In this document: one piece after another, positions 2-27,139 of the stretch
Position numbering within the stretch: position 1 is the first letter of the stretch
How the letters are laid out: each line of letters starts with the position of its first letter
Origin: a virus
DNA: 35,588 nt
Strand: one strand, 5' to 3'
Virus record (IMG/VR): IMGVR_UViG_3300043465_002728
Span: 1-35,588 of that record
Translations under genes and position numbers: made by a program
Notes under the pieces: generated by a model
Databases searched by the model: none
The model's input: only the letters and a program-made list of their open reading frames with translations
Told to the model about the DNA's origin: nothing

Positions 2-508
2 TACAGTGAGAAGCGGCGCTGTGCTACCCACGTGGACAGCGGCATGCAGAAGGTTCGTTGTAATTCGTGCCGCACGTTCTTCAGGGCTCGGAACGAAGTA
101 GAGACCCTGTCCTGTGCAAAGTGCGGCGAGTCAGCTGCTCGAAATAGTGGGATGTGGAAGTTTTATAATCTGATTGCCATTCCTGGCCAGATTCCGGTTA
201 ATGACAGTGACGTACCAATTGAGCAGGAAATCGACCCAGACCTGTCGCAATTTACCGCAATAGGATGCGCTGGCGGCCCGATTACAGTGGATCATAACAT
301 TGATATTTCACGGCTTTTGGACAAGGAAGACGAAGTAAATAAATCAATAATCAATCTAGTTTGTCAGGGATACAGCCGGGCAGAGATCGCGATTAGACTT
401 AATTTGAGTTCTTCAATTGTAAGTAAAAATCTGACGGATGTCTGCAACAGGCTAAGAAATAGGATAACAGAGGATGGTAATGAATTTTCAGCTCTTCAAG
501 ACGGCTAA
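2..508 (+). CDS. Zinc-ribbon and helix-turn-helix protein, cut by left edge
   Basis: Probable DNA-binding regulator. The frame is open to the window edge, and neither the GTG at 32 nor the ATG at 44 has a Shine-Dalgarno site, so the true start probably lies outside the window. A CNSC pair and a CAKC pair form a zinc ribbon near the visible N-terminus, and another Cys and His lie just upstream (around 20-31). The last 50 residues (EDEVNKSIINLVCQGYSRAE onward) read as a LuxR/sigma-region-4 type helix-turn-helix. It overlaps the start of the giant gene by 29 bases, so the two are probably translated together. A role as a phage transcription factor is inference; family and function are not recognised more precisely. 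Confidence 0.6.
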   Translation, partial: YSEKRRCATHVDSGMQKVRCNSCRTFFRARNEVETLSCAKCGESAARNSGMWKFYNLIAIPGQIPVNDSDVPIEQEIDPDLSQFTAIGCAGGPITVDHNIDISRLLDKEDEVNKSIINLVCQGYSRAEIAIRLNLSSSIVSKNLTDVCNRLRNRITEDGNEFSALQDG

Positions 509-3500
509 GCTACAGAACGAGATCACCCTTCCCCGGACCGACTTCCTTGTAGAGGTATTGCGGAGCATCATTGCTCCGCTTTACCTTATGAATGACAAGG
601 CTCATCCGGAGCTTAATGGCATTGCCGAAGCACTGGCCTCTTATTACGAAGAGAGTCAGCCAGGAGAACTGGTGTTCAGGAGCACGCGTTCGCGTGATCC
701 ATATGAGCTGTTCAATCCCAAACTATTGAATCTAAAGCTATCGGATGTCCGCGGCATTGCCTCCAAGGTCTCTAATAGCTCTATTGAGTTGACAGACAAA
801 AGCATTATCAGTCTGATAGATCTCGTAATGCACGAGACGATCTACATTTGCTGGCTAGAGTTTTGTGCAATGCATCCCGGTCTTAGCTTTTTCGCTGGAG
901 CCGAGGGCCTTTCTCCGGCAGAGCTGATTAAGACAGCCGTTGAGCAGGTAGAGGCGGGAGAAGAGGATGGAGAAAGCGAACAGCCAGCAGGCAAGGACAG
1001 GAATACGGGCAGGCGTATAAAAAGGAACAATGAAGTTCTAAAGACTAACCTTGGTCCTTCTTATGATCAAGTTCGTAGAGCCAAGGCGGCATTGGCGTAT
1101 CGCGCTGCATTCAATGGCTATACCCATAAAGGCTGGATGGACCTTATGCCATCGCACCAAGTGCAGACCCCCAAAGGCCTAAAGACCAAGGTGATAAGCA
1201 CTGCTACCAGAGATGCGTTAAAAAATAAAAGCTTTAACATGATGGTGTTTTGGGCAGATAGCTCGGACCACGTCTCAAACGTAATGGCCAATATAGCCGA
1301 AAGGCTTGATCGCGGCGAGCGTCCGAACGTAGATGGCATGCCGCTGACTCGCAATCCTGTTGCATCAAACGCAATTTACACAAATCCTGATTACTACTAT
1401 ACTGCTGGACAGAGCAAGGTCAGCCCCGCTGCCATCTATTCTGCATTCAACCTCGGGCACTCGGAGACAGTTGCCACACAGGCCGCAAACATGGGCCTGC
1501 TTAAGCACAAGCTTCTCTTTGGAGAAGAGGGTGACAGAGAGACGTTAATCTCTGGTTATGCACAGTCTGCAATCGGCGCTCACAAGCGCATCCGCTCGGC
1601 ATTCGGCAAGAATCCGGAACTCCTAAAGGATAAGCTGTCCTCTGTTCTAGTTGACGGCTTTAATTTTCATGTCGAGCTGATGAAGAGCAATGGCGTGAAT
1701 TCTCTTGAGTACCTGAATATCTTCAAGGCTCTGTCCAATAGTTCGTTTAAATCTTCTGCGGATAGATTTCTCGCTCGCATAGTGGCGTCTTTGCGCACAG
1801 ACTATGCATCGCTCCAACAGGCAAGCCAAGACTCATTCAACATTGTAGAAAAGCATATCTTAGAGTCCAAGACAGAGTTTGAGGGGCTTGCATCAGAGCT
1901 CCGGCACATGATGATTAGCGACGAAGACATGGCCAAGATCAATTCCGGCATGGGGTACTCTGACTTCTTGCACTTCTTTGCGGAGATTGAGCTGAATCTG
2001 CCGAGCTATCTCCACTCCAAGTTTTCACAAGAAAACGTAAATAGCTTTTTTGCACCAGTTCCTGTTCTCAATACAGAGGCCTCTATAAAGCTCGGAGATA
2101 AAGAAATTAGGGCTAGCAACATGGTAGAGTCCTTCTTGGGCACCGCCAAAGAGAAGCAGAATCCCGATGAGCTAAAGTTTGAAAGTGCGGTCGCGCAGGC
2201 ACTGAAAACACTTTCTTCGAAAAAAGTTAAGATGTCGCAAGATTCCATCAGTCTAATCCGCTCTGCATTAGAGTCGGTTTCTAAGCCGAACAGGCTCATG
2301 ATGCCAGATGTTGATTTCGAAAGCGCCATCAAAGATCTTCAGACGCTGCAGAATGCGATCAAGCAGGGCGTAGAATTGGCTCCAGAGCAGGTAGACGCGA
2401 TGCTAAAGGGCTTGCAGGTCCGCAATATCTATAGCAAAGAGTCGGCCCCAGAAGATATTCGCGAGGTATCTGCCAAGGCCGCAGCTGCCGTTGCAGATCA
2501 CGGGTACAAGGATACGCTGTTCAATGTGTTTTCTCACTCTACGGTCGCATTGAGAAATCTATACGTACAGACAAAGCAGCTCTCGATACTGCTCGCCAGC
2601 AAAAGAAAAAACAAAGAGCAGACGAGTGCTGCTCAAAAGCAGTGGAGAGAGGCTCCTAGTGGAAGCAGGGACCAGGGCATTGCATTCAAGATGCGAAATC
2701 TCTTAGAGACAGAAGGAAAAGACATAGATGCGCAGATCTCTGCTGCGCGTAAGTCGGTTTCAGTAAGACTGGAGCAGCTACTGCGAGGCGCCAAGGAAGA
2801 CGAAAAGTCTTCTGCTTTGGCCGGAACAGGCCTGAAAAAAACTTCTGAGAAGGTCGTGGGAGAAATAAGGCTTGCTCTTGCCGAGGGCAAAACTTACAAA
2901 AAGCTTGATCGTGATGCAATGCTCAGTATTGTCAACGCTTATGACATGTCTGAGTCAGGTAGACTTAATATTGAGGCGAGCCTGTTAGAGGGGATGCTCA
3001 CCGCGCACGCTACCGCTGGGACACCGCTGTCTGCAGATGGCAAAATTCTAACTACTGCAGATCTAAGCAATGCTTGCCGCGCATTGGTGCAAAACAAGCA
3101 GACTGAGGCCGACTATGACACAATATCTGCATTTCTAGCGTCGTCATTCAGTGACGACTTTAACCCAGATTTGCCTACGCAAACGTACTCGGACTTCTTT
3201 GGAGCTCAAAAGGAGTACCGAGGAACTCTTTCTGTTCTAAAGCCTGACTCAAATGAGCCAGATGAAGAGGCAGATCCTATCTTGCACCTAGGCGTAGGTA
3301 GCGTGCCGTTTACTGTCGATACGGTACTTGAGAAGTTTATCGGAGATGTCTCTGGCCATGCCCTAAACAACCAACTTTTAACAAATGCCGTCTCTAGCCA
3401 GTTTTCTGCAAACAAGGAGAGGATTGAAAAAGAGATCGAAGAGAACTTTGAAGTAGATAGTGACTCGGGCCTTACCAAGGGCACAAGAGACGACTTAAAT

Positions 3501-6500
3501 GAAAAAATAAGACAGCTTGATTCGTCGTCAATATTGGGGCAGCACGGCCTCGATCTTGAGCCACAAGCCGATGAAATTGCGAAATGGGGAACTGGGCCAG
3601 ATGCTCGAGCCTCAGAGATAAAGTTCCGTATTGCGGCACTGGGCAGATTTCTTGGCAAGCGAACGCGCTCCTCTGTAATAGCTGTCCTTGAAAAGACAAT
3701 CAATCCTGGTATTAAGACAAAGAAGAAAGATGGCTCAGAGGAGGATTCGTATTTTGATGAGTCTTATTACGACCCCCTCTTGACTCTAGTCTCCAGAGAG
3801 ATGAGACTTGCTCTTGAGACAGAGATCCAGGACGCAGTAGTTGCGCGCTATAAGCGTGGCAAATTTAGAGAAACCACTAGCCTCGAACAGGCAGAGGGCG
3901 GAGCTGCCCGGGTCGATGAGTCCGAGGGGGACATCTCGGAGAAGAAAAAGAAGACCGTGAAAGAGGATGCTGGAGAATCTGTTGTCAGAGGAGAGGATAT
4001 AAAGCAGTACGTATCTCGTTGGATTCAGTACCCTAATTACGGTGTCCGCGGAGGTCTGACTTCCTACTCAATGGCAGGAGTGATTGCTGATGCGCTCGAG
4101 AAGCGTGACTCTGGAGATGCCGGCCCTTTTTCCAATGCCATATCTTCTGGTTCTAAGCTTTCCTCTGATACGGTCAAGCTAAACAGCCTTCCGCAATTCG
4201 TAAGAGTTCTAAAGAATATGGCCAAGCTCGCCACTGGTTATCAGCTGTTCTATGTTCCAGCTGCCAAGAATCTTTCCCAGATTCTTGCGATCAGCAAGAA
4301 GAGTGGAGGTCTTTCTAGCCATCGCGAGATTGCTATTGACATAGGCGTTTATTGCGATCCGCTGACTGCAGCCAAGAACCTTGCCCGTGGAGCTAAGATC
4401 GGTGACACATTCAAGGAGGCCTTTGATCGCTTACTTATCAAGGTCGGAGACGAAAAGACAGATAGCTATGAAGAGTGGCGAAATGCCGTCATAGAAGTGT
4501 CAAATTACTCTGTTGGCTCAAGGAGAAAGGCGGTATCAGGCTTGCACCAGCTTTCTACCGAGGACAAGGATTTTCTAGATTCTCTTTTGGACAGAAAGTA
4601 CGAACCAAGCCTATCATGGGGAGGAGACATGTACTCTGACTCAGAGAGGACGAGGTTGCGTGTGATCGGAAAAATTCTCCTGGAGCCTCGCCAGATTCCA
4701 TGGTTAAAAGAATTCGTACAAGTTACCAAGGATCCGCAGCTGCTAGATGCCATGAAAAAGCGCTTTCCCAAAAAAGCAGAGGTCCTTGGAAAAGAGTTGG
4801 AAGACCTAGAGAAAAGCGTCGAGATGCGCAAAGCGTTCGCGTACGAGGCAAATGCCGCCCGCGACCAGGAACCCGCATCTACCGGCACAGATCTTGTGAA
4901 GATTTTTCTTTCTGCCTATGCAAAACTAAATCATATTGATGCAGAAAAGAAGAAAACCTATAGAGCAGCTGTGTCCAAGGTGTCATCCGAAGTAAGGCCG
5001 AATGATCTAGTGCTGGCAATTTCTCGAGACACGAAATGCCAGGCGGCGACGGACTCTATGCTAGATAATTTACTCGAAAGCGGCGGAAAGCTAATCAACT
5101 CTGCTCTTGCGGGCGTTGCCGGCTACAAAGATATGGAGAGCGCAAAGGCAGACCCGTCTTTCAAGATAAAACTGCGCGAAGGCTTTTTGCAAAAACTATC
5201 TAAAGACCCATACTTTATCATTTCCTTTAAGGCTGGGCTAGAAGATCTATTTGGAGATGATTTCGATGACGCTGGCGAAGCCAAAGCGATATCCGCTGCG
5301 CTCAGCACGACAGGAGAGGTAGTACAGGATAACCGCGAAGTGGTAACGGGCGCACTTCTTGCCGCAGTGGGCGAGACGTGGAGGATTGTTCTCGGGGTTG
5401 CCTCCAAGGATGACGCATCGCGCGCAGCTGTCGACTCGCACGAATCGACCGCGCTTGCCGCCGTCGAGGGCTTTGCCAGAGTGCAGGGCGATCACCTGTC
5501 CAAGTATTCTGACGGGGTTTCGGTAAGAGATGCGATCCGCAGTGCCTGCGGAGCTAATGCAAACCTAAATAAATTCATTGGCATGGTTGCCATGAAATAC
5601 ACAGGCGAAACGTTGCTCGGTGGGGAGAAGATTGAAGCGACGCGAACAATGATGAGTGATATGGCTTCTCTGTTCACTCCGAACTCAGAGCAGGTAAAGA
5701 AGTTTATAGAGACTGGCGACACCGCGCCAACTGCTTCTAAGACAATAAGAAGAAATGCGCCTGCTGCTCCGCCACAGCCAGTTGTTCGTCCGCCAGGTTT
5801 TTATGAAAATCTTTGCGAGGATGCTCAGTCTGTAGTTACGCAAGTCCTCGATTACTTTAATGCATCTGAGGCTGTCCGTGACCGCGTTTTTGAGGCCAAG
5901 CAAGCAGCATCACGCGCCACTGCAAACTCGCAGGATAATCAGATCCGCCAGTTGTTTGAAGAGATTAGCGTGGCAACAATGCCTGTGGCTGGTGCCCTGT
6001 CTCAGTATAAAACCGCATATCAGCTACATGCTAAGCATATACTTGAAAGGGCGAATGAGCTTACTGGCATAATGAAGCAGGCATATCCCGATATTCACAA
6101 TGTCCTTGACGAGATCTCTGCCAAAGGTATGGATCTTGCTCGAATCACTGACGAAGATCTTAAGAACTTGATTGCTGGAGATATGGCAAAAAATGCTCCA
6201 GAGGTCAAAGCATTTGTCTCTGCAGTGTCGACCGAGGGGGTTGACGCAGTCGTAGCGGCTACGCGTCGACAGGTCTACAGTGGAGTTGTGCCAAAAGGCA
6301 AGAAGATCGTAAGCCCTGCAGAAAGGGACAGGGCAAATATCACTCTGGACAAAATCTCTGCAGAGATAAAAAAATATCTTGATGTCAACGGACTAAACCT
6401 ACTTGGCGACGAGGTGCTTAACAGCAGGATCTTGAGAGCTATCGGAATGGACGTTCTTAATGTATTTAGAAACGGCAAGGTTGTCTTTGCCGAAGCAAGC

Positions 6501-8570
6501 AAAATCCTTGTCTCGCTTGGCGACTCCGCACCGATTACCCAAGAGGAGCTGGACCAGCGCCTGCGCTCCATGGTGCAAGACGCCATGGCGGACAAGGCGG
6601 CCGTCATAACCCGTTATATTTCCGGTAGCACCCAAAGCTTTGAAGACGTAGAAGAAGCAATGGAGTACGAGAGGACCGGGGCGACCGATCAGGATGAGCT
6701 GGAGGCAAGATTTAAGCTTGTTCGCCGCCATGGCCCAGGTATTCTTGAAAAGAAAAAGATCATAACTGAGCGCGTGGTTTTCGCTTCCGATCTTTCAAAG
6801 AAAGCAGAGACGCAGTCGAGCCGCATTTCTCCCGAATTCCAATCAGAATTCCAAAAGGCTCAGGAGAAGATTAATGCGGGACGAAATATTGCTCAAGAGA
6901 TAATTGAAAGTGCTCAGGGGGCAACAGACAGTGTTGACGAAGAGGTCACCATCTCCGAAGCCGAAGAGGCGCAAAAAGAAGACGTCCGCCGAAAGATCTC
7001 GGCTTATCTTGCCGCTCGCGCCGCTTCTGCACAAGGTGTTGCCAAGAAGATGATCGAGCTACTCCAGACAGAGGTAGACTCGGCACTTGGTGACGAAGAG
7101 GTCTTTGCATTCGTCTCTTTGCCAGGACTCAATACCATGTTGCGTTCACTACAGGGAGTAGAGAGCATCAGGCCGAATGAACTAGAGAGATCCGCTCGCT
7201 CACGCATAGAGCTCGTACTATCGAAAGTGAACGAGGCTTTTGAGGGAAGATTCCGCATTGTCTTGGACTACGGCAAAAAGGCTTCAGACTTTGATCTAAA
7301 GTTAGATGAAAAGCTTTTGGCAATAGTTCGTAAAGTAGATGCTCTAGCGAAGAATGTCGACCCAGACTCGGCCTCAGGGATCGGTCTATATAATATTCGA
7401 CTTGCAGCGAGCAGCATACTCGCAGAAAAGAGAACCGTTCGCGATGACGCCAATATCTCCAGTGTCATCTCCTCTTTAAATGATCTTGATAGTCTGATTG
7501 CCATTGATCGCGCTGATCGCGCAAATCCGCGCACTGTCTCAAGTATAATGAGCAGAGTGTCTAACCTTGGCGTATCAAGTGCAGATCGCACTGTGATATA
7601 CAAAGAAGTTCCAGATGGCGCAGGAAGTCAGCAGGCAGTCGCAGACTTTGACAAGGAACTGGCCAAGATTGATGATTTTGTAAAAGCCAGCGAGGGATTC
7701 GGCCTAGAGCCAGAGCTAAAGGCAGTCGTCACACGACTAGGCGAAATGGCAAGTCTCTTGTCTCCTGGTCGCAGAAAGATAGATACCGGCGCCAACATGG
7801 ACGGAGCCCTTTCTGCAATAAGAGAGCTTAATAGAGCACTGATCAGAGGCACTAAGCTAGAGAGAGCACAGCTGGATATGTTCCTTGATAGCATGCATCG
7901 CTTTGGCATAAAGACGGACGAGTTTGGCGCCGAGGTTATCGAGGTCACAGAGGATGTCGAGACCGCGCCGCTAGAGGCCACAGGTCCTACTGCAGAGGTC
8001 CAGGTCGAAGCACCGACAGAAGAGGACGTTTTGGAAATTAGTGAGGATGACGTAACTTCCCTAGAGCCCCCCGCCGCAGAGTCAGGAAAAATGGCGCCTG
8101 ATGAGGAGGAGCCGGTTGAAATCTCACAAGAGGATATTCAGCCGATTGAAGAGCCAGCCGCAGAAGCCCCTCCGGCCCCTGTTGCCCCGGCCTATGACCT
8201 GACCGAGGCACATGATGCCTTGCACCAGGTCGCAGAAGGTACTTCGTCTGCTGCCAAGGCCGCCGGCGCAGTTGGCGATACCGCCAACAAGCTCTCGACC
8301 CTGGTCAGCCGGCTCAGTGCAATGCTGCCCCCAACTGTGGACGTAGCTGCACTGCCCGCCAAGTTGCATGCTGCAACTGAAACGGCCAAGGCGGTGCAGG
8401 CCCTGGTGTCCTCGTCTGTCCGCTCGCCCACATGGACGGCAGGTTCTGAGTTGCCGCACATGCCCGAGTTGGACAAACTGATCTCCGAAGTAGATCAGAT
8501 TATGTCGCCAACACGGCGGGCATCTAGGTCTCTCCGCTTCGTAAGAACAGGAGACTCCTGGTTGATCTGA
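480..8570 (+). CDS. Giant helical protein of unknown function (2696 aa)
   Basis: Not recognised. I chose the ATG at 480 because the AGAGG at 469-473 sits six bases upstream of it; an in-frame ATG at 474 directly abuts that site. The protein is almost wholly predicted alpha-helical, with long charged stretches and no signal peptide, membrane segment or obvious catalytic motif. I looked for RNA polymerase metal-binding motifs and saw none. The last 250 residues include a Pro/Glu-rich acidic linker with two related segments (EISEDDVTSLEPPAAE and EISQEDIQPIEEPAAE), then an Ala-rich helical tail ending in a basic patch. The N-terminus (MNFQLFKTAK) resembles that of the lysozyme-domain protein at 29533. 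A virion-internal or ejected protein is the likeliest role, by size and composition only. A strong terminator follows. Confidence 0.85.
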   Translation: MNFQLFKTAKLQNEITLPRTDFLVEVLRSIIAPLYLMNDKAHPELNGIAEALASYYEESQPGELVFRSTRSRDPYELFNPKLLNLKLSDVRGIASKVSNSSIELTDKSIISLIDLVMHETIYICWLEFCAMHPGLSFFAGAEGLSPAELIKTAVEQVEAGEEDGESEQPAGKDRNTGRRIKRNNEVLKTNLGPSYDQVRRAKAALAYRAAFNGYTHKGWMDLMPSHQVQTPKGLKTKVISTATRDALKNKSFNMMVFWADSSDHVSNVMANIAERLDRGERPNVDGMPLTRNPVASNAIYTNPDYYYTAGQSKVSPAAIYSAFNLGHSETVATQAANMGLLKHKLLFGEEGDRETLISGYAQSAIGAHKRIRSAFGKNPELLKDKLSSVLVDGFNFHVELMKSNGVNSLEYLNIFKALSNSSFKSSADRFLARIVASLRTDYASLQQASQDSFNIVEKHILESKTEFEGLASELRHMMISDEDMAKINSGMGYSDFLHFFAEIELNLPSYLHSKFSQENVNSFFAPVPVLNTEASIKLGDKEIRASNMVESFLGTAKEKQNPDELKFESAVAQALKTLSSKKVKMSQDSISLIRSALESVSKPNRLMMPDVDFESAIKDLQTLQNAIKQGVELAPEQVDAMLKGLQVRNIYSKESAPEDIREVSAKAAAAVADHGYKDTLFNVFSHSTVALRNLYVQTKQLSILLASKRKNKEQTSAAQKQWREAPSGSRDQGIAFKMRNLLETEGKDIDAQISAARKSVSVRLEQLLRGAKEDEKSSALAGTGLKKTSEKVVGEIRLALAEGKTYKKLDRDAMLSIVNAYDMSESGRLNIEASLLEGMLTAHATAGTPLSADGKILTTADLSNACRALVQNKQTEADYDTISAFLASSFSDDFNPDLPTQTYSDFFGAQKEYRGTLSVLKPDSNEPDEEADPILHLGVGSVPFTVDTVLEKFIGDVSGHALNNQLLTNAVSSQFSANKERIEKEIEENFEVDSDSGLTKGTRDDLNEKIRQLDSSSILGQHGLDLEPQADEIAKWGTGPDARASEIKFRIAALGRFLGKRTRSSVIAVLEKTINPGIKTKKKDGSEEDSYFDESYYDPLLTLVSREMRLALETEIQDAVVARYKRGKFRETTSLEQAEGGAARVDESEGDISEKKKKTVKEDAGESVVRGEDIKQYVSRWIQYPNYGVRGGLTSYSMAGVIADALEKRDSGDAGPFSNAISSGSKLSSDTVKLNSLPQFVRVLKNMAKLATGYQLFYVPAAKNLSQILAISKKSGGLSSHREIAIDIGVYCDPLTAAKNLARGAKIGDTFKEAFDRLLIKVGDEKTDSYEEWRNAVIEVSNYSVGSRRKAVSGLHQLSTEDKDFLDSLLDRKYEPSLSWGGDMYSDSERTRLRVIGKILLEPRQIPWLKEFVQVTKDPQLLDAMKKRFPKKAEVLGKELEDLEKSVEMRKAFAYEANAARDQEPASTGTDLVKIFLSAYAKLNHIDAEKKKTYRAAVSKVSSEVRPNDLVLAISRDTKCQAATDSMLDNLLESGGKLINSALAGVAGYKDMESAKADPSFKIKLREGFLQKLSKDPYFIISFKAGLEDLFGDDFDDAGEAKAISAALSTTGEVVQDNREVVTGALLAAVGETWRIVLGVASKDDASRAAVDSHESTALAAVEGFARVQGDHLSKYSDGVSVRDAIRSACGANANLNKFIGMVAMKYTGETLLGGEKIEATRTMMSDMASLFTPNSEQVKKFIETGDTAPTASKTIRRNAPAAPPQPVVRPPGFYENLCEDAQSVVTQVLDYFNASEAVRDRVFEAKQAASRATANSQDNQIRQLFEEISVATMPVAGALSQYKTAYQLHAKHILERANELTGIMKQAYPDIHNVLDEISAKGMDLARITDEDLKNLIAGDMAKNAPEVKAFVSAVSTEGVDAVVAATRRQVYSGVVPKGKKIVSPAERDRANITLDKISAEIKKYLDVNGLNLLGDEVLNSRILRAIGMDVLNVFRNGKVVFAEASKILVSLGDSAPITQEELDQRLRSMVQDAMADKAAVITRYISGSTQSFEDVEEAMEYERTGATDQDELEARFKLVRRHGPGILEKKKIITERVVFASDLSKKAETQSSRISPEFQSEFQKAQEKINAGRNIAQEIIESAQGATDSVDEEVTISEAEEAQKEDVRRKISAYLAARAASAQGVAKKMIELLQTEVDSALGDEEVFAFVSLPGLNTMLRSLQGVESIRPNELERSARSRIELVLSKVNEAFEGRFRIVLDYGKKASDFDLKLDEKLLAIVRKVDALAKNVDPDSASGIGLYNIRLAASSILAEKRTVRDDANISSVISSLNDLDSLIAIDRADRANPRTVSSIMSRVSNLGVSSADRTVIYKEVPDGAGSQQAVADFDKELAKIDDFVKASEGFGLEPELKAVVTRLGEMASLLSPGRRKIDTGANMDGALSAIRELNRALIRGTKLERAQLDMFLDSMHRFGIKTDEFGAEVIEVTEDVETAPLEATGPTAEVQVEAPTEEDVLEISEDDVTSLEPPAAESGKMAPDEEEPVEISQEDIQPIEEPAAEAPPAPVAPAYDLTEAHDALHQVAEGTSSAAKAAGAVGDTANKLSTLVSRLSAMLPPTVDVAALPAKLHAATETAKAVQALVSSSVRSPTWTAGSELPHMPELDKLISEVDQIMSPTRRASRSLRFVRTGDSWLI

Positions 8571-15193: not shown

Positions 15194-15745
15194 ATGTCAG
15201 AAGAGCAAAAGTCTGAATCGATCATGGCCCAGCTGGAGGAGCAGATTCGTGCTGCTACTGGCTATCCGAACATACGTATAATGATGCGTACAATTTCTGA
15301 GTACGTTAATCAGATTCCAGATACTGTCTCGACGGTAGATGGGCACACTGCTCGTGAACTAGCTGCTCGCTTCTTAAAGGGCCAGTCGCTCTGTGCAGAC
15401 CTTGTTGCAATTGCAGAATTTTATGAGGGCAAGATGGCTCGTAAACAGAAGGCAACCTATTCTGAAGCGTTTATCGAGGCACACGACAAGTTCAAGACGC
15501 AGAAGGAGAAAGAGTCGTACGCAGAAATCTCTGCTACGCACGTCGATGCGGCTGAAGAGCACCTGCGTGCAAAGATGTTCCGACTTCTTATCGAGAATAA
15601 GCGCGAAGACCTAGAGAAAGCGCATTATTTTATGCGTAAGATTGCAGAGGGTGACACTATGGCTCCGCCAGATCTATCGTCTGTGCAAAATGCTCAAGGT
15701 GGTACTATTCAGCGAAGGAACGAGTCTGGTCGCGTGGGCTTCTAG
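15194..15745 (+). CDS. Helical protein before SSB, possible recombination mediator
   Basis: Unknown; a UvsY-like role is a weak guess. The ATG immediately follows the previous stop, with GGAG about seven bases upstream. The 183-residue protein is nearly all helical. A middle region (ADLVAIAEFYEGKMARKQKAT, then KTQKEKESYAEISATH) has the general layout of T4 UvsY: helix with a Tyr-containing turn, Lys-rich loop, helix. The C-terminal 30 residues are polar and probably disordered. It lies directly upstream of the gp32-like SSB and four genes before the RecA/UvsX-like recombinase, the partners UvsY has in T4. Sequence similarity to UvsY is too faint to name it. Confidence 0.75.
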   Translation: MSEEQKSESIMAQLEEQIRAATGYPNIRIMMRTISEYVNQIPDTVSTVDGHTARELAARFLKGQSLCADLVAIAEFYEGKMARKQKATYSEAFIEAHDKFKTQKEKESYAEISATHVDAAEEHLRAKMFRLLIENKREDLEKAHYFMRKIAEGDTMAPPDLSSVQNAQGGTIQRRNESGRVGF

Positions 15746-15752
15746 ACTACGG

Positions 15753-15860
15753 ATAGTTCAGCATAGCAACGCCACTATGTGGCAGTCAACTATTAACAAC
15801 AGTCTGTAGGCGCAAGCCGGGATAAGAGTATCCTCACTATACGTGCAGACAAAAAGAGGA
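15753..15860 (+). promoter_or_regulatory. Structured 5' leader of the SSB gene
   Basis: The gap before the SSB gene can fold extensively. First comes ATAGTT (15753-15758) with AACTAT (15788-15793) enclosing a GCCAC-TAT-GTGGC hairpin (15771-15783). Then GTCTG (15802-15806) pairs with CAGAC (15846-15850) around three small hairpins: GGC-GCAA-GCC (15809-15818), GGATA-AGAG-TATCC (15820-15833) and CAC-TATAC-GTG (15835-15845). The result is a compact cloverleaf-like junction that ends just before the Shine-Dalgarno AGAGGA (15855-15860). T4 gp32 is known to repress its own translation by binding a structured leader; a similar role here is inference. Confidence 0.5.
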
Positions 15861-15865
15861 AAAAC

Positions 15866-16612
15866 ATGACTACAGTAAATGGACGTATTGCTTGGGGTGA
15901 GAAGGCTGGTGGCGGCGGTGCCGGTGCTTCAAAGCTAGATCAGAAGAACGACTTTCTGCGCCTCAAGGCTGATGGCGACTACATCATTCAGCTGCTCAGC
16001 GAAGCGCCAATGGCTTATCACGAGCACTGGAGTAAGACCGCTGATGGCGCAAACCGCAGCGTTCGATGCTCGCTACGCAATTGCACTCTTTGCAAGGAAT
16101 ACGAGATTGCCAAGAACTCGCCGGATGCAGCGCGACGGGAAGCCTCAAAGCAGATGCGCGCTAGCCCCAAGTATGCCATCGAGGCTTACTTGCTTGCCCA
16201 AGGCAATGAGCGCCTTGGTCAGAGCGTCGGCCGTGCGGTAATCTTTGAGTTTGGCAAGCAGATCTATGACCAGATCTCGCAGGTCGCAAAGACTCTTGAC
16301 AAGATCGGCGGTCAGCTCAACGGCAGCATTCTGCTAGTTAATCGCGAGGCTCGCCGTGGTCCGTCCGGCATGTACAGCGTCACGCTAGTGCCCACGGGTT
16401 ACAAGATGAGCCAGCAGCAGCTTGACTCTGTCAAATCCTTCGAGGAGAAGGGCATTGATCTCAGCAAGCTCTATGCTCCACCAGAGGACGAGGCCAATAT
16501 GCGCCGTCTTGGTCGTCTAGGCGGCCCAGGCGGAGAGGCACCGACTGCCACTGCTGCGCCATCTGATGCTGCTCCATCGGCTGGTGGTGCCAAGTGGGAC
16601 GATAGCTGGTGA
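15866..16612 (+). CDS. ssb: Single-stranded DNA binding protein, T4 gp32-like
   Basis: Coats single-stranded DNA during replication and recombination. The 248 residues have the T4 gp32 layout: a short basic N-terminus, a core with a HEHW segment (H52, H54) followed by C68, C73 and C76 as a probable zinc site, a strand-rich OB-like region (SILLVNREARRGPSGMYSVTL), and a low-complexity Gly/Ala/Pro linker leading to an acidic aromatic tip (KWDDSW). Such acidic tips recruit partner proteins in gp32 and bacterial SSB. The start is fixed by AGAGGA five bases upstream. The gene stands behind a structured leader and before a terminator, so it may be expressed as its own highly expressed unit. Its placing beside recombination genes supports the call. 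Confidence 0.75.
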   Translation: MTTVNGRIAWGEKAGGGGAGASKLDQKNDFLRLKADGDYIIQLLSEAPMAYHEHWSKTADGANRSVRCSLRNCTLCKEYEIAKNSPDAARREASKQMRASPKYAIEAYLLAQGNERLGQSVGRAVIFEFGKQIYDQISQVAKTLDKIGGQLNGSILLVNREARRGPSGMYSVTLVPTGYKMSQQQLDSVKSFEEKGIDLSKLYAPPEDEANMRRLGRLGGPGGEAPTATAAPSDAAPSAGGAKWDDSW

Positions 16613-16634: not shown

Positions 16635-16657
16635 AGCCGGCGTCAGCCGGCTTTTTG
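16635..16657 (+). terminator. Rho-independent terminator after SSB
   Basis: AGCCGGC (16635-16641) pairs with GCCGGCT (16646-16652) around a GTCA loop, followed by a T-run and, after GC, a second run of seven T residues. Confidence 0.9.
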
Positions 16658-16680
16658 CTTTTTTTGATGTAATTCTGAAA

Positions 16681-17391
16681 ATGGAACACGTATTAAGAAT
16701 AGAATCTCTCCTCAGGGCTAGCTCACTCTTTCATACAATGGAAGACGTCTCTACGCAAAACCATTTAGTGATCACCTCGCTGTCCGGACATGCAGTCGGA
16801 CTGTCATATGTAATCATGACAGATGAGATCGTGCTCGACTATGACCTAGTCCTGCAGCCCACTTATGTAAATCTATATACGCTTGGTAAACTCTGCGACC
16901 TTGCCACAAATCTTGGCGTTAGTGTGCAGTCGCCGCGACCAACAGAAATGCGTACTACAAAGGTTGGCTTACGCCGCCGAGTATCTCCGGTACTTCTGCA
17001 AACACTGCAGGATGTCGAGTCAGCGATAAATATATTCTGTTTTGCAGTCGATTCTGCATCTGAATATTTTCAGCGCGTTGCTGTATCTCATACTCTTCCG
17101 AACGTCGACATCTCTATGTGGGAAGGCGTTGATCTGAATTTCACAAACATCGACAGACTTACCGAGCGCAAGGCGATAACATATACGGACTGGCGTGCCC
17201 TAGCAGAAACAGTTGCAGAGCTAGATATTCCTGATGAGTACATAGAAGGCATGGTGGATATTGCCAACCGCTGCCAGCTTTTCGAGGAAGCAAATCCGCA
17301 CCTGCCTATTGCCCAAGTAGTTGATCCGCTGCTTGCACTGCTAGAAGAAATGGATGAGCGTCCGCCACCAAACAGCTATGATGTGAATTGA
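16681..17391 (+). CDS. Unknown protein upstream of RuvC-like nuclease (236 aa)
   Basis: Not recognised. The N-terminal half looks alpha/beta (HLVITSLSGHAVGLSYVIM; EIVLDYDLVLQPTYV), the C-terminal half is helical and acidic (IPDEYIEGMVDIANRCQLFE). No zinc site, Walker motif or signal peptide is visible. The ATG follows the SSB terminator by 24 bases and lacks a Shine-Dalgarno site. Its TGA stop shares one base with the ATG of the next gene (TGATG), so it is translationally coupled to the RuvC-like protein and may act with it. Confidence 0.75.
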   Translation: MEHVLRIESLLRASSLFHTMEDVSTQNHLVITSLSGHAVGLSYVIMTDEIVLDYDLVLQPTYVNLYTLGKLCDLATNLGVSVQSPRPTEMRTTKVGLRRRVSPVLLQTLQDVESAINIFCFAVDSASEYFQRVAVSHTLPNVDISMWEGVDLNFTNIDRLTERKAITYTDWRALAETVAELDIPDEYIEGMVDIANRCQLFEEANPHLPIAQVVDPLLALLEEMDERPPPNSYDVN

Positions 17392-24698: not shown

Positions 24699-26990
24699 TC
24701 AGCTGCCTGAAGTCGGATGCGAACCCGGAAGGCCAAAGTTCGCTGTATAGCGAGCAACGCCTTTGGTTATGCGGAAATCATCTATATGCCCAAAATAGCC
24801 AGAAGTACCTGGATTTGTTGTGGAGACTGAGCCAATTACAAGTGGTTCGCCGTTAGATGGAATTGTGCCACTTGCCGTACCAATTGCTGCAGAAGTGCCA
24901 TTGACGTATAGGGTAAACGTGCCTCCACTCCTAACAAATGCCAGGTGCGTCCAAGTGTTTGCAGGGATAATATCACCAGTCGCCGCGCTTACGGCCCAAC
25001 TGGTACCATTAGTTGTGGCATAGTAATACGCACGGTACGCATTAAGTGACGAGTTGAACTGCAAGAATCCTATAACACCTCCGTAAATACTAAGCGACTG
25101 TCTTTTACCAAACAGGTATTTTTGCGTCCCATTTGCAAGGCCGTTAATAGGATTAATCCACATTTCAATTGTATAGTTTCCAGATCCAAATTCAAGACTC
25201 TGGCTTGAAGGAACAGATAGATAATCTCCAACGCCATCAAAATATAAACTCGAGCCGCCATATCTGCTTTGTGCCGTGCTAATAAAGGCATTGCCGACTC
25301 GTGATACCGCAAAGGCATTGGCGCTGCTGTCAACAAACGACGTGCTGCCATTTGCCCCATCGGCCTTCATTAGCAGCGAGACGCTTGAGAAGTACGGGTC
25401 CGAGACTGGGTGGGAGCCCGGAGGCGTAAAGTTCGCAGTGTATCGGGCGATACCTTTGGTCACACGCAAGTCGTCTATGTAGCCGTTGAGGTCGTAGGTG
25501 TAGCCGGGGACAGATGTTCTGCCGACGAGCTGGGCGTGCGTTGTAGTTACATTCTGACTCGACAGTGTTGTCGAGCCTATCAGTGCCCCGTTGAGAAAAA
25601 ATCGCGTCAGAGTCCCTTGCCGAGATACTGCTGCGTGGTGCCACTGGTTTTGGGCAACCGTGGCAGGAGCGTTGAGCCCGCCCCCGCTACCGGACTGGTA
25701 GTTCTCAAAGCCTAGCCCAGTTCCGGTGGTTGACGAGTCGCCTAGTATGTAAAAGTTGTAGCCCATGGAGGATCCTGAAGGTGCAAAACATGAAAATATG
25801 GTCGCGATTCGCTGGTTGCCCGCACTCAGCGGCGAGTTTCCAGCGATAAAAAACCAGCACTCTATGGTGAAGTTGCCAGTCCCGAAGCTGAACAGCGCGG
25901 AGTTTGCAATAGATAGGTTGTCCCCGCTGCCATCAAAATATGCACTGGATCCGCCGAACTTACTCTGTGCGGTTCTAATCGCAGCATTACCAAGCCTTGA
26001 GATGGCAAGATTATTAGCGCTGCTATCGACAAACGACGTGCTGTTATTTGCCCCGTCAGCCTTAAGTAATAGCGAGACGTTTGCGAAGGATGCGTCCACA
26101 GCGTCCGCAACCGTAAGCGTGACCGTAGCTGCAGCAGAATTCGCCGTGCCATCGTTGACCCTGAAGGTAAAGCTGTCTGAGCCGGAATAGCCGCTATTCG
26201 GAGTATACGTCAGGCTTGGAGCCGTACCGGTCAAGGAGCCGTTGGCAGGATTCGTCACAACCGTGTACGTCAATGCGCTGCCTTCGACATCGCTGCCCGC
26301 CAGAGTTATTGCAGTTGCGGTGTCACGGTTCACCGATACGCTCTGGGCAGTAGCCGCAGGCGTGTCATTGACGGCAGTTACTGTGATGCTAACGGTAGCA
26401 GTAGAAGAGTTCACGTACCCGTCGTTAACGCGGAACGTAAAGCTGTCCGAGCCGTTGTAGTTCGCATTGGGCGTATAGACCAGGTTCGGGGCGTTACCCG
26501 TCAGCACGCCATTGCTTGGGCCGGCGACTACTGCGTAGGTCAGCGGATTTCCGTCGATATCACTGCCTGTCAGGGTAATAGCAACGTAGCCGTCTTCGAG
26601 CACGCTGACGCTCTGGGCAGTAGCCTCAGGCGTGTCATTAACCGCAGTTACTGTTATTGAAACAGTAGCCACGGCCGAATCTGCTGTACCATCATTAGCT
26701 TTGAACGTAAAGCTGTCCGAGCCGTTGTAGTTTGCGTTAGGCGTATAAGTCAGGCTCGGAGCGGAGCCACTTAGGACGCCATTAGTCGGGCCGTCAACTA
26801 CTGTATAGGTCAGTATATCGCCATTTGCATCACTGGCAGTGAGCACGATGTTGGCCGCAGCATCCTCAGATGTCGAGATGTTCTGGCCTACAACTACGGG
26901 AGCCACAGGGCCGGTACCAGGTAGAACTGTATCCGAAGTCTGAGAGGTCGATAGTATAGCTGGACTTAATAAACCAAAATTACTGGGCAT
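24699..26990 (-). CDS. Cadherin-like repeat and LamG-domain protein, probable fibre or adhesin
   Basis: Likely surface-exposed virion protein that binds host or environmental glycans. After a 30-residue N-terminus come three tandem repeats of exactly 90 residues (31-120, 121-210, 211-300), each with the pattern LTYTPN-Y-GSDSFTF-NDG of cadherin-like/VCBS-type beta sandwiches. Two LamG (concanavalin A-like) domains follow at about 301-532 and 533-763, each ending in IDD-R-TKG-ARYTANF. The start at 26990 is chosen because AGGGAGAA lies five bases upstream; an earlier TTG/ATG frame to 27101 crosses a 20-base palindrome and is not needed. No signal peptide is seen, which fits a virion part rather than a secreted bacterial adhesin. 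A tail fibre or capsid decoration are both possible. Confidence 0.88.
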   Translation of the reverse strand: MPSNFGLLSPAILSTSQTSDTVLPGTGPVAPVVVGQNISTSEDAAANIVLTASDANGDILTYTVVDGPTNGVLSGSAPSLTYTPNANYNGSDSFTFKANDGTADSAVATVSITVTAVNDTPEATAQSVSVLEDGYVAITLTGSDIDGNPLTYAVVAGPSNGVLTGNAPNLVYTPNANYNGSDSFTFRVNDGYVNSSTATVSITVTAVNDTPAATAQSVSVNRDTATAITLAGSDVEGSALTYTVVTNPANGSLTGTAPSLTYTPNSGYSGSDSFTFRVNDGTANSAAATVTLTVADAVDASFANVSLLLKADGANNSTSFVDSSANNLAISRLGNAAIRTAQSKFGGSSAYFDGSGDNLSIANSALFSFGTGNFTIECWFFIAGNSPLSAGNQRIATIFSCFAPSGSSMGYNFYILGDSSTTGTGLGFENYQSGSGGGLNAPATVAQNQWHHAAVSRQGTLTRFFLNGALIGSTTLSSQNVTTTHAQLVGRTSVPGYTYDLNGYIDDLRVTKGIARYTANFTPPGSHPVSDPYFSSVSLLMKADGANGSTSFVDSSANAFAVSRVGNAFISTAQSRYGGSSLYFDGVGDYLSVPSSQSLEFGSGNYTIEMWINPINGLANGTQKYLFGKRQSLSIYGGVIGFLQFNSSLNAYRAYYYATTNGTSWAVSAATGDIIPANTWTHLAFVRSGGTFTLYVNGTSAAIGTASGTIPSNGEPLVIGSVSTTNPGTSGYFGHIDDFRITKGVARYTANFGLPGSHPTSGS
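26091..26900 (-). repeat. Three 270-bp tandem repeats encoding cadherin-like domains
   Basis: Copies at 26631-26900, 26361-26630 and 26091-26360 encode 90 residues each with no indels between them. The first two are nearly identical over the segment encoding NYNGSDSFTF (around 26440 and 26710), while the third is more diverged. The equal length suggests unequal crossing-over or recent duplication. Confidence 0.85.
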
Positions 26991-27045
26991 TAATTCTCCC
27001 TGGATCACTGGCCTTGCACGAATTTTGCTTGGCCATACTGCAGTA

Positions 27046-27052
27046 TATTTAG
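27046..27052 (-). promoter_or_regulatory. Possible late-type promoter element for the LamG gene
   Basis: On the minus strand the sequence reads GGTACTAAATATACTG, containing CTAAATA, close to the late-promoter core of T4-like phages. It lies 56 bases upstream of the LamG start codon. Short motif; could be chance. Confidence 0.3.
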
Positions 27053-27068
27053 TACCGTCGGCAGCTCC

Positions 27069-27088
27069 CGGCCGGGGTACCCCGGCCG
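27069..27088. promoter_or_regulatory. Perfect 20-base GC-rich palindrome in the divergent intergenic region
   Basis: CGGCCGGGGTACCCCGGCCG is a perfect inverted repeat between the divergently read LamG and Nudix genes. No T-run follows on either strand, so it does not look like a terminator. An operator for a dimeric regulator of the divergent pair is the simplest guess; an RNA hairpin in either leader is the alternative. Confidence 0.55.
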
Positions 27089-27139
27089 CAAAACCTATCA
27101 TTGCAGGCGCATAGAGGTAATGTCAAAAGCCGGAGCACC

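Follow-up and report, generated by a model that had tools for sequence, protein, structure and literature searches.

A predicted cloverleaf RNA kept ahead of a gp32-like SSB gene in uncultivated phages: a candidate for translational control

Introduction

How does a single-stranded DNA-binding protein (SSB) that coats any single-stranded DNA pick its own message? This is called unclear in passages of PMC535899, where it is also given as not known whether other Ssb proteins regulate translation. The T4 gene 32 operator, as outlined in parts of PMC535899 and PMC3014915, consists of a pseudoknot followed by more than 40 less-structured bases, in which both the ribosome site and UUAAA repeats lie; the proposed course is that gp32 nucleates on the pseudoknot and spreads over the less-structured stretch. 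The same question is raised by the virus-derived DNA analysed here (35,588 bases; the window). A first-pass annotation had proposed that the gap before its SSB gene folds into a hairpin domain followed by a closed junction, possibly a solution independent of T4 with a different fold. Is this junction a conserved RNA, and what might it do?

Results

The locus and its SSB gene

The gap before the SSB gene is present as annotated: it covers 120 bases (15746-15865) between a 183-aa ORF, which has no Pfam or PHROGs match, and a 248-aa SSB ORF (Table 1). Among the neighboring genes are those for a DnaE-type polymerase, a RuvC-like resolvase, a UvsX-like recombinase and a primase, which makes the region a phage replication cluster. 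The SSB hits phrog_1192, annotated as single strand DNA binding protein, with E 7.4e-07, a family matched by three of the four SSB members, and Pfam gp32 at E 0.00055, which is under the family cut-off; no Pfam match was found for the SSB protein of the most distant relative, L021. An AlphaFold model of the SSB, calculated from the four-member alignment, is weak (mean pLDDT 55, pTM 0.48). When it was compared with the PDB by Foldseek, T4 or RB69 gp32 took each of the first five ranks (E 3.6e-06 to 4.2e-04), although the superpositions are poor (TM 0.31-0.42 and rmsd 13-14 in the top five). A sequence profile of the SSB returned four PDB chains to E 1, gp32 not among them. Together, the phrog_1192 and Foldseek matches mark the SSB as gp32-like. 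The comparison with gp32 drawn in the annotation thus holds for the protein family, and in this respect the locus resembles a T4-type operator.

A terminator scan placed a hairpin with a T-rich tail 3′ of the SSB gene. It has a counterpart at 4764-4791 of L010, so the SSB message may end there; the scans found two terminator-like sites in the window against 2.0 expected in shuffles and one in L010 against 2.8. In L021 a possible hairpin followed by a short T tail lies at about 7443-7475; the scan did not list it.

Several other features of these genomes were recorded. An insert of about 400 bp splits the dnaE-like gene between residues 820 and 822 in L010 (695-1096) and L021 (about 3285-3676). 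By eye, the L010 insert is in frame, starts with Cys and has a His-Asn end before Cys; it is probably a mini-intein of 134 aa, which the window lacks. After its SSB gene, L021 carries a GIY-YIG/NUMOD3 ORF (7468-8202; Pfam E 6.9e-13 and 1.1e-11) that probably encodes a homing endonuclease; the window has the ORF 16681-17391 at this place. The GIY-YIG gene segG adjoins gene 32 in T4, according to a passage of PMC535899. Elsewhere in the window, internal repeats at 25233-26813 (74-77% DNA identity, L012 vs the window) lie inside a minus-strand 800-aa ORF (24699-27101), and a 2698-aa ORF (474-8570) has no Pfam family at E 0.001.

Table 1. Features of the SSB leader and its surroundings (window coordinates).
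Feature	Position	Strand	Remarks
P0 competing strand CUACGGAU	15747..15754	+	Can pair with 15802-15809, excluding P1; invariant in L002 and L003
5′ hairpin GCCAC-UAU-GUGGC	15771..15783	+	Invariant in L002 and L003; L021 has a different hairpin there
P1 5′ strand GUCUG	15802..15806	+	Partner 15846-15850; UCUG/CAGA invariant in all three lineages
P2 hairpin GGC-GCAA-GCC	15809..15818	+	Pairs 15809-15811/15816-15818; L021 GUGG-AAUUGA-CCAC; both sides changed in 2 of 3 pairs
P3 hairpin GGAUA-AGAG-UAUCC	15820..15833	+	Pairs 15820-15824/15829-15833; L021 GGAUC-GUA-GAUCC; both sides changed in 1 of 5 pairs
P4 hairpin CAC-UAUAC-GUG	15835..15845	+	Pairs 15835-15837/15843-15845; L021 CGC-AUUAC-GCG; both sides changed in 1 of 3 pairs
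P1 3′ strand CAGAC	15846..15850	+	Outermost G-C pair absent in L021, counted as gap
A-rich ribosome-binding region AAAAAGAGGAAAAAC	15851..15865	+	Directly 3′ of P1
gp32-like SSB gene, 248 aa	15866..16612	+	phrog_1192, Pfam gp32, Foldseek
Terminator-like hairpin and T-rich tail	16635..16662	+	3′ of the SSB gene; terminator scan

Relatives of the window phage

Viral contigs were scanned with the SSB, the RecA and the upstream gene, with three degenerate peptide-derived patterns from the SSB and the upstream gene, and with a 17-mer of the leader. Three independent lineages were obtained. The first is the window itself, which is the same phage as L001 (a record of 371,675 bases); L012, another cut of that record, is 99.995% identical to the window across 21,134 bases. 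L002 and L003 form the second, with SSBs 86% and 85% identical to that of the window. The third, L021 and L022, was reached via the upstream protein; the two are mutually identical across 10,953 bases, and the L021 SSB is 49% identical to the window SSB.

Other candidates were rejected. L008 contains the leader 17-mer, but the bases that follow do not continue the element, and the match was taken as chance. L015-L017 gave distant RecA matches only (26-42%), and the L015 and L016 records are without an SSB relative. L024-L026, L028 and L029 matched a pattern, but 14 window and two L021 proteins give no match to them at 1e-3. Genome contigs yielded nothing by DNA pattern and no relative by the upstream protein (113 stretches). 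In the phage collection the window SSB had no match at 1e-5 and three weak ones to E 10, neither the L021 SSB nor the upstream protein had any to E 1, and no DNA match was found around the leader.

The cloverleaf and its conservation

The predicted element is a four-way junction at 15802-15850, in which P1 (GUCUG/CAGAC) encloses three small hairpins and stops 15 bases before the SSB ATG; the sequence and the descriptor give 2, 1, 1 and 0 joining bases between the helices. This part of the annotated fold is borne out by the comparisons below, both the model search and the double changes. The hairpin domain placed 5′ of it is not conserved in detail. A possible outer pairing around the 5′ hairpin (GAUAGUU with AACUAUU) is lost in L002 and L003, and on sequence comparison the structure of the first half of the leader appears less secure than the junction.

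Between the window and L002 or L003, 46 of the 49 core bases are identical, the three changes all falling in the loops of P3 and P4, and the three leaders agree in 52 of 55 columns around the cloverleaf. The 5′ blocks CUACGGAUA and GCCACUAUGUGGCAGUCAA are likewise invariant in these leaders. Identity between the window and L002 at four-fold degenerate sites is 49% in the SSB gene (51/105) and 38% in the upstream gene (27/72); the cloverleaf is thus held far tighter than such sites. At the same place L021 reads UCUG-AA-GUGG..CCAC-G-GGAUC..GAUCC-U-CGC..GCG-CAGA.

MAFFT alone misaligned P1 and P2 of L021, hence pairs were counted in a model-fitted alignment, which has three distinct rows only and leans towards the structure. 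Standard pairs occupy 47 of 47 counted cells; one cell, the outermost P1 pair of L021, where no pair can form, was set aside. The annotation had named a lack of compensatory changes in homologous leaders as its refutation; such changes are found, from three distinct sequences only: 4 of 16 pairs, in three helices, are double-changed in L021 (two in P2 and one each in P3 and P4), and the five pairs of P1 never vary. Six slid versions of the structure paired 24-50% of cells with zero double changes, and control shuffles reached the observed values in 6 of 500 cases (12 of 500 for pair types). When the seven aligned changes were scattered randomly in a simulation, all twelve tested pairs survived in 0.33% of trials; for the L021 P2 stretch, set aside there, shuffles close four pairs in 2.0% and three in 5.6% of cases.

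By eye, UCCUC at 15831-15835, invariant in the three lineages, complements GAGGA (15856-15860) of the ribosome site; in L021 the complementarity between the P3 region and the ribosome site is only UCCU to AGGA. With this complementarity, opening of P3 could hide the Shine-Dalgarno sequence.

Occurrence of the element

Covariance model R1 was built from the window, L002 and L003 only and is blind to L021, which is included in model R3. R1 detects the L021 leader (6585-6638) with 20.0 bits and E 0.0013 when both strands of 46,541 bases are searched; the match after it, of eight listed to E 10, scores 10.6 bits (E 0.98). A sequence-only model of the same leaders scores the L021 leader at 4.2 bits (E 2.3), covering just part of the model and ranking below six unrelated places. 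The bit scores are not strictly comparable, because the effective sequence number is 2.9 in this model vs 1.78 in the structure model. The R1 search is the independent test of the fold, and a better one than the pair count.

When whole records were searched with R1, the SSB leader came out on top in six of six clade records, scoring 87.5-90 bits in four and 20 bits in the pair containing L021 and L022; a further match (10.4 bits, E 8.9) lies in the 371-kb record. At E up to 1, R3 matches 6 of 16 records, one match each and always the SSB leader, from three lineages; the scores for L021 and L022 are by construction, and the searched records may be fragments. R3 has no match in the ten other records (eight virus, one Bacteroides phage and one T4-type Serratia phage). 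Across both strands of the window, a loose cloverleaf descriptor fits at 9 places (20 start positions), one of them the cloverleaf itself. Separately, CUAUACGUACAGACAAA at 2559-2575 of the window is similar to the 3′ portion of the cloverleaf (7.9 bits, E 0.16, sequence-only model); R1 gives no match there to E 10.

Folding energy and a competing helix

The annotation had also weighed whether random sequences fold equally well, and here the answer is graded. The window leader has an MFE of -28.6 kcal/mol (z -2.20; 5 of 200 shuffles equal or better) and its 50-base core a z of -2.66 (2 of 200 as good); the L021 core has a z of -1.74 (15 of 200). For the whole leaders of L002, L003 and L021 z is -1.84, -1.99 and 0.07, with 7, 5 and 109 of 200 shuffles as good. 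By folding energy alone, the junction is modestly better than chance.

The MFE structure of the window leader holds helix P0 (15747-15754/15802-15809), not the closed junction. The probability of P1 is 0.01 in the window and, at 37 C, about 0.42 in L002, about 0.68 in L003 and 0.17-0.19 in L021; folded on its own, the window core is most stable with a 7-pair P1 and an open P4. In constrained folds the P0 state is better than the P1 state by 7.1 kcal/mol in the window, and the two are at most 0.8 kcal/mol apart in L002, L003 and L021 at 37 C. Out of 1000 shuffles, 24 match the best P0 duplex in the window, 22 in L002, 25 in L003 and 569 in L021. A GGAUA/UAUCU pairing is present in the L021 MFE structure and, by eye, no P0 pair is double-changed relative to the window. 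Folding could not decide the structure, and the comparative evidence carries its support.

Pairing of the ribosome site was computed over the whole ensemble. In the window, 15851-15865 is mostly unpaired, except for A15857 and G15858 (unpaired 0.20 and 0.13) within GAGG; the GGU of the ribosome site is mostly paired in L002 and L003, and L021 is intermediate.

Comparison with known RNA elements

At gathering thresholds, Rfam 15 gave zero matches in the window and none in L010, L011 or L005. To E 10, 15700-15900 had two chance-level matches only (9.3 bits on the - strand and 8.9 bits), and the L021 leader had nothing relevant. A tRNA reading was rejected, as ARAGORN finds zero genes in the window, and so was a yjdF riboswitch, which has no covariance match to E 10 in the window leader or the L021 leader. 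By these searches the RNA is a predicted conserved element without a match among the families covered. In a literature search of titles and abstract openings, with subscription papers mostly out of reach, a cloverleaf leader of a phage SSB was not found among the matches listed.

Like the T4/RB69 gene 32 operator, the element precedes a gp32-family SSB gene and places conserved folded RNA 5′ of the ribosome-binding region (A-rich here, A+U-rich in T4). It differs from that operator in its supported fold, a nested four-way junction where T4 has a pseudoknot, and in its spacer, which in the window is 15 bases without UUAAA repeats against more than 40 bases with repeats in T4; L021 has 27 bases after P1 with a single UUAA. 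The cloverleaf may work like the T4 operator, but it is not filed as one, because the spacer differs and SSB binding is putative. A yjdF riboswitch, described in a passage of PMC9142559 as a four-helix junction upstream of the ribosome-binding site, shares with it a junction upstream of the Shine-Dalgarno sequence and a possible competing state; the phage element differs in its lack of an Rfam match, its short loops, the absence of any sign of a small-molecule ligand and the SSB gene downstream. STAXI motifs are also structured and near SSB genes (and other DNA-handling genes), but passages of PMC2864571 describe two or three repeated pseudoknots, in contrast to the single nested junction in this leader.

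Discussion

Judged by the alignments and model searches, the structure is conserved to an extent that exceeds chance, within the limits set by three lineages and an invariant P1. Folding of an ordinary gap by chance would agree with an MFE z of only -2.2 and with the nine places that fit the loose descriptor. It is already contradicted by the confinement of changes in the core to loops, the result of R1 set against that of the sequence-only model, the double compensatory changes and the rarity with which randomly placed changes spare the tested pairs, and we consider it scarcely credible. The position of the element makes a regulatory role likely. Its position, the gp32-relative gene downstream and the precedent of T4 make autogenous control by the SSB the leading mechanism by analogy, with SSB binding putative; since the supported fold is unlike that of T4, position and protein family are what sustain the analogy. 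That the leader is a cis-acting translational element controlling the phage's own SSB is the most likely reading and is given roughly an even chance. The four-way junction would be held directly upstream of the A-rich ribosome-binding region; SSB in excess of its single-stranded DNA ligand would nucleate on the folded element, spread over the A-rich start region and block ribosomes, in the manner of T4 gp32 and its pseudoknot. What the comparisons themselves show is the fold, the compensatory changes, the single occurrence per searched record, the position and the kinship with gp32. Against autogenous control stand the predicted preference of the window leader for P0, the z of the whole L021 leader, the predicted pairing of part of the L002 and L003 Shine-Dalgarno sequences, a spacer that is short compared with that of T4, and terminator-like sites that are not above shuffles.

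The main rival is a cloverleaf that acts without a ligand, a compact 5′ structure beside the ribosome site that raises translation or protects the message, so that a protein required in quantity is well made. Passages of PMC9142559 report that translation in vitro rose 2- to 6.3-fold with tRNA-like elements upstream of the Shine-Dalgarno sequence and describe yjdF as a junction so placed, and the predicted ensemble leaves most of the window's start region unpaired. The sequence of the core is itself so tightly kept that specific recognition is suggested, however, the 3-6-base hairpin loops look too short for a tRNA elbow, and ARAGORN sees no tRNA in the window; we regard this rival as rather unlikely. 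A two-state switch, in which a ligand or the SSB decides whether 15802-15809 joins 15747-15754 (P0) or, for part of its length, 15846-15850 (P1), would account for the invariance of both UCUG partners between the window and L002 or L003, for the near equality of the two states in L002, L003 and L021, and for P0 duplexes that beat 97.5-97.8% of shuffles in the window, L002 and L003. It is improbable, given the strong lead of the P0 state in the window, an L021 duplex no better than shuffles and the lack of any double-changed P0 pair by eye. Slightly less probable again is an element of processing, transcription or DNA, such as an RNase site, a promoter neighborhood or a single-strand structure at a replication site. 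Reference titles in PMC3014915 indicate that T4 gene 32 mRNA is processed by RNase E, and passages of PMC2864571 raise the possibility that STAXI repeats close to SSB genes form structures in single-stranded DNA; but the element occurs once per record, always directly before the SSB ribosome-binding site, and a simple sigma-70 scan finds no + strand site within the leader (one - strand site lies at 15789-15760, and the site count equals that of shuffles).

A broader proposal is tentative, and we give it somewhat less than an even chance: the gp32-family SSB of an uncultivated phage clade may recognize a four-way junction in its own leader, so that at least two unrelated RNA folds would serve SSB autoregulation, here possibly tuned by a competing helix. 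A second folded leader, different from that of T4 and on a distant relative of gp32, would allow the question of how such a protein picks its own message to be put to another RNA shape, and would reveal what the gp32 family needs in its RNA target.
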